Shown piece after piece: positions 5,272-53,937 of a stretch of 64,000 bases of DNA (positions are counted from its first letter, which is position 1; each line of letters starts with the position of its first letter). The position numbers and the translations under genes were made by a program. The notes under the pieces were generated by a model. It was not told the origin of the DNA and ran no database searches. It worked only from the letters and a program-made list of their open reading frames with translations. The DNA is taken from the NCBI GenBank assembly GCA_021413735.1, contig JAIOPV010000021.1:1-64000 (forward strand). The letters are read 5' to 3'. Source of the stretch: Planctomycetota bacterium (GTDB lineage Bacteria; Planctomycetota; Planctomycetia; Gemmatales; Gemmataceae).

Positions 5272-5464
5272 AGTTGGAAAACCGGGGGTTGCTCGCTGGC
5301 TGGAACGCCGAGTTGGACGCAGGCAGATGATATGACGCCGGACAGGGGCGACAAGTTGGTACAATCGGGTAACTTGCCTGATTTTTCTGGGAATGACCCT
5401 CGCCCGCGACTCGAAGACTCGTCGCGACCACTTCCCAAAAATCTCGGGCGAGGTGGGGTAATTG

Positions 5465-5558
5465 GTCGGAGCCCGAGCGCCAAGCGAGGTTCAAGCGTGC
5501 CCCTCGCTTGGCGCTCGGGCTCCGACATATTCGCTGCTCGGGCTCCGACATATTCGCT
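5465..5558. repeat. 25-bp perfect palindrome joined to a 23-bp tandem duplication
   Basis: This is the main content of the 358-bp gene-free stretch 5272-5629. The arms 5465-5489 and 5502-5526 are perfect reverse complements (core gagcccgagcgccaagcgag) around a 12-base centre. The right arm overlaps two head-to-tail copies of a 23-base unit (5513-5535 and 5536-5558, gctcgggctccgacatattc plus gct). This implies the palindrome edge was duplicated, for instance by replication slippage. The rest of the gap shows no coding sign. Confidence 0.75.
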
Positions 5559-25717: not shown

Positions 25718-25759
25718 AAAACGTAAAAGCTGATCGGGGACGATCCGTTTTTGCGTTTT
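25718..25759 (+). terminator. Terminator-like hairpin after ptsI
   Basis: An A-rich left arm (aaaacgtaaaa, 25718-25728) can pair with a T-rich right arm (tttttgcgtttt, 25748-25759). The inner stem gatcg-ggga-cgatc closes the loop. The pairing has mismatches. It fits the end of the hpf-ptsI transcript and argues that the next gene starts after it. Confidence 0.55.
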
Positions 25760-25768
25760 GCTTTGTGC

Positions 25769-26614
25769 ATGAAGCGCGCTCCTGGGAAACCGGGACCGAT
25801 GTTCGGTGACAAGCTCCGTTTCCGCTTCTCAAAAACCGGCACGCTCCGGTTGCTCTCCCACCATGATCTCATGCGCTGCCTGGAGCGAATGCTTCGCCGC
25901 GCCGCGTTGCCGTTCAAGTCTACTGCTGGTTTCCACCCTGGCCCGCGAGTCGTGTTCGCGCTCTCTCTCCCCCTTGGCGTCGCTGGGCTTGATGAAGTCG
26001 TCGAGATCGAGTTCCTGAAGGAACTCGATGCGGACGAAACGCTTGCCCAACTGCGTTCGCAGGCACCCGATGGGTTGGCTTTCAATCGCGTCTCCATTCT
26101 CCCCATGAAGATCACCGGCGTGCCGCGTCGGATCGTGTATCGTCTCGCGATCCCCGAGGAGCGAGTCGAGACCGTGACGCTGCGCTGTGCCGAACTGCTC
26201 GCACAGGAGAAGGTGTGGGTGGAGCGACTGAAGCCGAACCCAAAGCGACTGAACATCCGCCCGTACTTGCGAAATCTTAGTGTGGTCCGCTCGCTCCGCG
26301 AGCGGGAAGCCGAACCGCTCGCGGAGCGAGCGGACCACATTCTCGCACTCGATCTCTGGGTGACCGGCACGGGAACGGCGCGTGCCGACGAACTGATGAA
26401 ACTGCTGAACGTTACGGACCTGATCGACGCGGGAAGTGTGGTCGAGCGTTCCACGGTGGAACTGCGAGATGAGTTTGTCGGCACCGATCCGGCGGATATT
26501 CCACCAGACGGACAGGCCGACACATTGCCACTCGACGCGGCAGCCATCGCCAACTTGATCCAGCAGAAGGAAGAAGACCAACTCGTATCGGCCTTGGGGC
26601 CGGTCGTGGAATGA
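25769..26614 (+). CDS. DUF2344 / TIGR03936 protein with an in-frame palindromic insert
   Basis: A 281-residue protein of the radical-SAM-linked DUF2344 family, usually encoded beside or fused to a TIGR03960 radical SAM protein and next to RNase E/G. The family blocks are KLRFRFSKTGTLRLLSHHDL, then AALPFKSTAGFHPGPRVVFA and VEIEFLKELDADETLAQL. The family is thought to act in tRNA or translation-linked modification, but its reaction is unknown. Residues about 171-190 (VVRSLREREAEPLAERADH) are encoded entirely by the perfect palindrome 26281-26339, between NIRPYLRNLS and ILALDLWVTGTGTAR. The start is set at ATG 25769, with ATG 25799 also possible. RNase E/G follows at once; no radical SAM gene is adjacent. 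Confidence 0.85.
   Translation: MKRAPGKPGPMFGDKLRFRFSKTGTLRLLSHHDLMRCLERMLRRAALPFKSTAGFHPGPRVVFALSLPLGVAGLDEVVEIEFLKELDADETLAQLRSQAPDGLAFNRVSILPMKITGVPRRIVYRLAIPEERVETVTLRCAELLAQEKVWVERLKPNPKRLNIRPYLRNLSVVRSLREREAEPLAERADHILALDLWVTGTGTARADELMKLLNVTDLIDAGSVVERSTVELRDEFVGTDPADIPPDGQADTLPLDAAAIANLIQQKEEDQLVSALGPVVE
26281..26339. repeat. 25-bp perfect palindrome inside the DUF2344 coding region
   Basis: The arms 26281-26305 and 26315-26339 are perfect reverse complements (tgtggtccgctcgctccgcg plus agcgg) around gaagccgaa. The reading frame passes straight through with no stop. The encoded peptide is a charged Arg/Glu-rich loop. The element has the same build as the intergenic palindromes in this window. 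Confidence 0.85.
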
Positions 26615-29831: not shown

Positions 29832-29885
29832 TTCGCCGCTTGCGGCGTAGCGCTTTCTCGTGAGCGCTACGCCGCAAGCGGCGAA
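29832..29885. repeat. 23-bp perfect palindrome, gccgcaagcggcgaa type
   Basis: The arms 29832-29854 (ttcgccgcttgcggcgtagc plus gct) and 29863-29885 are perfect reverse complements around ttctcgtg. It lies between the RNase gene and a convergent small gene and could end both transcripts. Related units are at 53892-53932, 47511-47530 and in the right arm at 29-47. Confidence 0.8.
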
Positions 29886-53884: not shown

Positions 53885-53891
53885 TGGGTTT

Positions 53892-53932
53892 GCCGCTTGC
53901 GGCGTAGCAAAAATTGCAACGCCGCAAGTGGC
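53892..53932. repeat. Palindrome, gccgcttgcggcgt type
   Basis: The arms 53892-53905 and 53919-53932 are reverse complements except for one base. Inner bases gcaa / ttgc extend the stem. It lies between convergent genes and probably ends both transcripts. The core matches 29832-29885. Confidence 0.7.
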
Positions 53933-53937
53933 GAAGA

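Follow-up and report, generated by a model that had tools for sequence, protein, structure and literature searches.

A probable REPIN-like element in frame within a planctomycete DUF2344 gene, and the apparent reuse of the same protein loops by unrelated palindrome families

Palindromic repeats located inside genes have so far been recorded mostly case by case. The closest described systems are the GTAG-type REPs and REPINs with RAYT transposases (excerpts of PMC3733652 and PMC3116915), the Rickettsia palindromic elements or RPEs (excerpts of PMC2229807), and the coding palindromes of Nematomorpha mitochondria (excerpts of PMC6649704). According to the excerpts of PMC3733652, REPs lie inside ORFs in several bacteria. 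Opitutus terrae has the largest number of intragenic GTAG repeats, and most of its GTAG-20 elements read GTGG. The excerpts mention pseudouridine synthase genes among those with intragenic REPs. REP families are also reported in Planctomycetes; the word Gemmata is absent from the main text of that paper. The same excerpts describe one case of a shared site: in recB of X. campestris and X. oryzae, different REPs occupy nearly the same site, and other genes of the recB functional group carry REPs at different sites. The RPEs are 105–146 bp long (PMC2229807, excerpts), and those of R. conorii end in CGTC (PMC3733652, excerpts).

The window analyzed here is the whole 64-kb stretch of planctomycete DNA, and it belongs to a genome assembled in 293 contigs (G000). 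The ORF at 25751–26614 of the window encloses a palindrome entirely, and its likely start is the ATG at 25799. The product of this ORF matches the Pfam profile DUF2344 (E 1.3e-36) and TIGR03936 (E 6.9e-42). A sequence-only reading of this DNA had claimed a 25-bp perfect inverted repeat with a 9-base loop lying wholly within a coding region, and this is confirmed. The features of the locus are as follows.

25799–26614, forward strand: DUF2344/TIGR03936 (radical SAM-associated) gene with the insert; ORF, profiles, and orthologue starts matching the ATG at 25799.
26267–26290, forward strand: codons of the predicted beta strand 157–164, preceding the inserted loop; AlphaFold2 model.
26281–26339, forward strand: whole palindromic element, a probable inverted REP pair (REPIN-like); repeat analysis, half-sites in the genome and tag counts.
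26281–26305, forward strand: left arm; inverted-repeat detection.
26282–26285, forward strand: left REP tag GTGG; of 31 half-sites in the G000 loci read, 27 have GTGG or GTAG.
26287–26305, forward strand: left REP hairpin with an 8-bp stem, CCGCTCGC/GCGAGCGG, and a 3-nt loop; sequence and inner 8-bp repeat.
26306–26314, no strand: 9-nt loop separating both REPs; inverted-repeat detection.
26315–26339, reverse strand: right arm, which is the left REP inverted, with the hairpin at 26315–26333 and the tag at 26335–26338; inverted repeat and half-sites.
26336–26365, forward strand: codons of the predicted beta strand 180–189, following the inserted loop; AlphaFold2 model.

The 25-nt arms of the repeat are 100% complementary and are separated by 9 nt. 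Each arm consists of GTGG, a T, and the 19-nt hairpin with its 8-bp stem. The inverted repeat is far beyond chance: the 21-nt core of the arm has two matches in the window, which are the two arms themselves (shuffle mean 0.02), and the RNA fold of 26275–26345 reaches −61.4 kcal/mol, whereas shuffled versions average −26.5 (z −11; none of 200 shuffles folds as well). Read directly, this copy contains no stop in any frame on either strand.

Counted from the ATG at 25799, the palindrome covers residues 161–181 of the protein. The sequence-only reading had put the addition at about 19 residues, which holds for the span of the palindrome (about 20 codons) but overstates the net gain: compared with the empty orthologues of two relatives (G008 and G013), the insert adds 45 bases, or 15 residues. 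In the AlphaFold2 model, a prediction built on 28 sequences, the mean pLDDT is 90.2 and falls to 64–76 at residues 161–180. The insert is predicted to form the loop 165–179, which is the turn of a beta-hairpin between the strands 157–164 and 180–189. The earlier suggestion that the frame survived because the insertion fell into a surface loop is supported by this predicted position. The model as a whole (25799–26611) resembles pseudouridine synthases of the TruA/Pus1 type (best E 1.8e-8, TM-score 0.50, 11% identity).

The REP family of this palindrome, referred to as family A, is dispersed in its own genome. The search for further copies that had been proposed with the original observation yielded 34 half-sites of the arm core in G000 at up to 3 mismatches, and the reversed pattern yielded 1. 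At up to 1 mismatch, the arm is found in 16 of 59 genomes, namely 15 of the 19 within the genus and 1 of the 40 outside it, the latter having a single match. These counts bear on the idea that the palindrome is of local origin, through template switching, or is an assembly artefact. In favour of it are the perfect arms and the fact that draft assemblies, such as this one in 293 contigs, can be upset by long palindromes. Against it, 32 other half-sites exist in the genome, copies occur in the genus, and the reading frame is open and coding to the left and right of the palindrome, as judged by flank codon statistics. As the arm belongs to a dispersed family, a local origin by template switching is rejected, and this explanation as a whole is regarded as highly improbable.

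The half-sites of family A mostly carry a GTRG tag. The fetched loci of G000 have GTGG or GTAG at 27 half-sites out of 31, those of G012 at 69 of 74 and those of G009 at 12 of 16; those of G002 have GTGG at 30 of 36. At 11 places in G000, exact plus- and minus-strand half-sites are paired 30–74 bases from start to start. The loops of these paired copies vary in length and sequence. Since the copies often form inverted pairs with differing loops, the family A pair is interpreted as a REPIN-like unit. One copy in G000 (locus L012, position 1501, contig C147) is a single palindrome without a spacer and with the tag at both ends.

The genome with the most family A half-sites is G006 (118). At one of its loci (L294), family A REP copies immediately precede a transposase gene and recur at its 3′ end, the final copy overlapping the ORF. 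The best NCBIfam match of this transposase is the REP-associated tyrosine transposase NF047646 (E 1.3e-16), with 60.8 of 80 bits and hence below the cut-off. Among the 80 Y1_Tnp matches in the 19 genomes of the genus, 39 loci were scanned and one had a family A REP beside it; at the 11 Y1_Tnp loci of G000, read up to 1.5 kb on each side, family A REPs are absent. Neither a target-site duplication nor an exact junction was established. The GTRG tag and the transposase neighbour in a congener point to the REP/REPIN type and not to the RPEs. The likeness to the Rickettsia elements drawn by the sequence-only reading thus stands for a palindrome in frame inside a gene, but not for the type of element.

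Other palindromes were observed near transposase genes. A Y1/IS200-like transposase gene of G000 (L040, contig C76) is flanked on both sides by TCCGAGCCCGAGCGCCAGCGAGG palindromes, at 1276–1333 and 1943–1994. The palindrome at 5460–5531 of the window looks like the TCCGAGCCCGAGCGCCAGCGAGG type with one extra base, the pattern itself being unmatched in the window. The window also contains two palindromes of one type, CGCCGCTTGCGGCGTAGC, at 29832–29885 and 53889–53935, which do not lie in one coding frame according to the flank test; a CGCCGCTTGCGGCGTAGC-like palindrome adjoins a Y1_Tnp match in G004 (L293). In G003, a palindrome of the B type described below lies upstream of a Y1_Tnp gene, on one side only (L270, 1191–1248).

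The DUF2344 gene was found in 17 of the 19 genomes of the genus, 16 of them readable at the insert site. The site is empty in G008, G013, G011 and G017, and G008 has the nearest orthologue (84% identical). The inserted residues are hence absent from the closest relatives, in line with the check proposed for the original observation. At this position, at least 5 extra residues are present in 12 of the 16 orthologues, and 8 of these 12 inserts proved palindromic in a shuffle test; those of G002, G007, G009 and G012 failed it. The insert of G000 belongs to family A, and that of G014 is a 29-bp perfect palindrome of another family, B, which is itself dispersed (346 half-sites in G014). G001, G003, G004, G005, G010 and G016 carry G- and C-rich palindromes, and the inserts of G001, G003, G004 and G010 share arm words and are C-like. 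Family C occurs in 13 of the 19 genomes of the genus and in none of 22 others, and it is absent from G000 and G014. In an unrooted four-gene tree of 18 genomes, built without G006 and G025 because of gaps, G000 and G008 are sisters, joined next by G013 and then by G014, with supports of at least 0.999. As G008 and G013 are empty, families A and B would most simply have entered DUF2344 independently.

Thirteen DUF2344 orthologues from other genera were also aligned. At the site, nine are exactly as long as the empty sequences and two are longer by 2 and 4 residues, while L064 and L052 (G025) have 7 and 23 extra residues. The named records L103 and L113 contain DUF2344 inserts of 24 and 32 residues; the latter (JALHQU010000268.1, a Fimbriiglobus MAG) has its insert at the DUF2344 turn and of the type PPLQSGEGE..PPPLRVGEG. 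The two match segments of the G009 orthologue (L056) start 659 bases apart, which is not a multiple of three, so this copy is either frame-broken or affected by a sequencing error. Both this gene and RarA of G009 (L346/L355) appear frame-shifted at the insert, which may reflect a genuine frame break or sequencing errors in C-runs. The DUF2344 protein also varies in length near the C-terminus (11 of 16 genomes, 7–10 residues), outside the interior region counted below.

Three further proteins with an intragenic element in one species were selected: a RarA-like protein (family B in G014), ThiL (family C in G007) and a ThrC-like protein (family B in G014). They were searched in all 19 genomes of the genus, and 16, 18 and 16 loci, respectively, were aligned. 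Inserts of at least 8 residues were counted as interior, leaving aside roughly 12 core columns at each end, and inserts were taken to share a site when they lay in the same loop, a few residues apart at most. The genus counts omit L052 (G025, another genus, with its own insert) and L060 (G015, which ends short of the site). Five rows (DUF2344 of G009; RarA of G009, G018 and G005; ThrC of G004) were omitted when insert sequences were read between anchors, and they are included in the length and palindrome counts as far as their frames run.

RarA has 10 interior inserts in one loop, where they fall at two alignment places separated by five core columns; 7 of them are palindromic. When RarA of G014 is aligned to the RarA chain of 3pvs, gaps lie over the insert. 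All 5 interior inserts of ThiL are palindromic. In ThrC, 5 interior inserts at one place are all palindromic and have five unrelated arms; 3 further inserts lie elsewhere, 1 of them weakly palindromic. DUF2344 has 12 interior inserts at one place, 8 of which are palindromic, and 1 elsewhere that is not. Across the four proteins, 25 of the 26 palindromic interior inserts are located at one loop per protein, or 21 of 22 without the four inserts from which the search started. In addition, QueG, which was found unsought in the scan of G013 and the census of G014, has unrelated palindromes at the same place of the protein (L439, 17092–17179, and L318). In 400 kb of the respective genome, the arm at the ThrC site of G013 is matched 11 times and the low-complexity arm at the ThrC site of G000 10 times. 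The arm at the RarA site of G000 has none in 400 kb of its genome and none in the window, which argues against a mobile origin of every insert at these sites. Several C-like inserts, above all those of ThiL, may go back to one ancestral event; four of the five ThiL inserts share arm words, so ThiL perhaps contains one old inherited insertion. Taken as a whole, unrelated palindrome families seem to colonize the same tolerant loops recurrently in related species.

Such a concentration could also be produced if the elements or their transposases chose their sites, attracted by a short word such as GTGG or by an existing palindrome, with tolerance playing a secondary role. The 25 of 26 inserts at one loop per protein would agree with this, and in G008 and G013, whose sites are empty, GTGG stands at the position of the insert tag. 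According to the excerpts of PMC8266576, tetranucleotides beside the hairpins of IS200/IS605 guide the choice of the cleavage site, and changing them retargets IS608. Some loops also look like stacked C-like pieces (the G012 inserts, of which that in RarA fails the palindrome test). However, the ends of the families that meet at the same loops differ (GTGG for A, GGCGAACC for B and ACCTACCC for C), so no single target word serves them all. GTG is moreover a common valine codon, the GTGG match is based on two sequences, and most of the classified A, B and C copies lie outside coding frames. Target preference is therefore considered unlikely as the main cause, and tolerance plus selection is the likeliest cause of the recurrence.

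The position of the copies relative to coding frames was classified by the codon statistics of both flanks, a procedure that recognizes 338 of 420 positions located in long ORFs. In the fetched loci of four genomes, 2 of 85 classified family A elements lie in an open coding frame, compared with 257 of 500 random positions; one further element was too near a contig end to classify. The two copies in frame are the one in the DUF2344 gene and one between HpcH aldolase and 2-hydroxyacid dehydrogenase domains within a single ORF (L021), which may be a gene junction. Family C in G007 gave 3 of 21 in frame, and a B variant in G002 gave 0 of 8. De novo palindrome scans placed 0 of 31 in frame in 400 kb of G000 (random positions 109 of 300), 4 of 47 in 400 kb of G013 (158 of 300) and 1 of 8 in the window, the last being the palindrome at 26281–26339. 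Because the in-frame fractions are low in both the family census and the de novo scans, an intragenic palindrome appears to be a rare survivor here. The sequence-only reading had also considered an element whose composition keeps it open in any frame. This is true of the DUF2344 copy, yet it explains little, since family A is nearly absent from coding frames, and the stop-free nature of the element was discarded as an explanation.

For family B in G014, 44 elements were classified, taken from 78 full palindromes, and 14 of them were called in an open coding frame, compared with 136 of 242 random positions. A fixed amino-acid model was used for this census, as a codon model derived from the longest ORFs picked antisense frames in these loci (73.6% GC). 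One of the 14 calls is doubtful (L310, an ORF of 30 residues). Pfam domains were found in 6 of the 8 scanned ORFs with an in-frame B copy; L302 and L306 gave no match. Twelve of the 14 copies end in HPLPDGRGS, though another frame is also open, and most C-like inserts start with peptides of the PTP type, for example PTPPSPLPEGKGE. Both peptides fit selection for polar, loop-like sequences.

It could be supposed from this that the added peptides are useful as adaptive loop extensions or linkers, and that the palindromes were kept for changing the protein. Several conserved proteins carry inserts and, as described, one frame dominates in G014. Against this, sister species without any insert keep the gene, the sequence and length of the inserts are unrelated between species, and mere tolerance would likewise lead to hydrophobic peptides being avoided. 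We regard usefulness of the peptides as quite improbable.

The reading we prefer, with a probability of roughly 0.85, is that the palindrome at 26281–26339 is a REPIN-like mobile element composed of family A REPs of this planctomycete genus, that it was inserted in frame and tolerated at a loop, and that the same loops are reused by unrelated families. A REP-associated tyrosine transposase probably moved the element, which would have entered the turn of the DUF2344 beta-hairpin once the lineage had separated from its sister. Insertions into genes would mostly break them and be lost. This one kept the frame and would have lengthened only a surface loop, and so it could be tolerated. The same filter, acting on unrelated families, would lead to a few tolerant loops being colonized again and again. 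We infer that a transposase made the move, that the protein is still functional, and that tolerance, not target choice, picks the site.

The unrelated palindrome families can be viewed as repeated natural insertion experiments, which mark loops accepting some 10 to 90 extra residues. The comparison of congeners makes the alternatives of random survivors and directed insertion testable. A bolder and rather doubtful proposal is that the small set of loops serves as standing docking sites, where unrelated families insert preferentially, replace one another and drive the turnover of loops in housekeeping proteins. If true, proteins would here evolve along a directed and recurrent route instead of by random insertion with survivors. 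For gene annotators and protein modellers, the loops are a warning that such regions can be former mobile DNA.

Among the literature matches listed for palindromes in Gemmata or planctomycetes, there is no report of this system. Intragenic REPs and one same-site case are already known; the reuse of the same loops by several families over several proteins is not described among the literature matches listed and is new in this sense. With the GTAG-type REPs and REPINs (PMC3733652 and PMC3116915, excerpts), the element shares the GTRG tag, the short perfect hairpin and the inverted dimers. Like them, family A is dispersed and lies mostly outside genes; at one locus of a congener it adjoins a REP-transposase-like gene. 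The Rickettsia elements, as described in the excerpts of PMC2229807, are similar in being palindromic repeats found in frame within conserved proteins and also outside genes. The DUF2344 copy resembles them in its open frame within a conserved gene, and close relatives lack it. It differs in being 59 bp long and tagged with GTGG, not 105–146 bp long and tagged with CGTC. Functional genes of Nematomorpha mitochondria (PMC6649704, excerpts) likewise contain long perfect inverted repeats, but both arms of these repeats code for conserved residues, whereas the arms in DUF2344 form an insert that close relatives lack. In comparison with the single-gene case of recB (PMC3733652, excerpts), four or five proteins are involved here, and up to five unrelated palindromes occupy one loop, as in ThrC.
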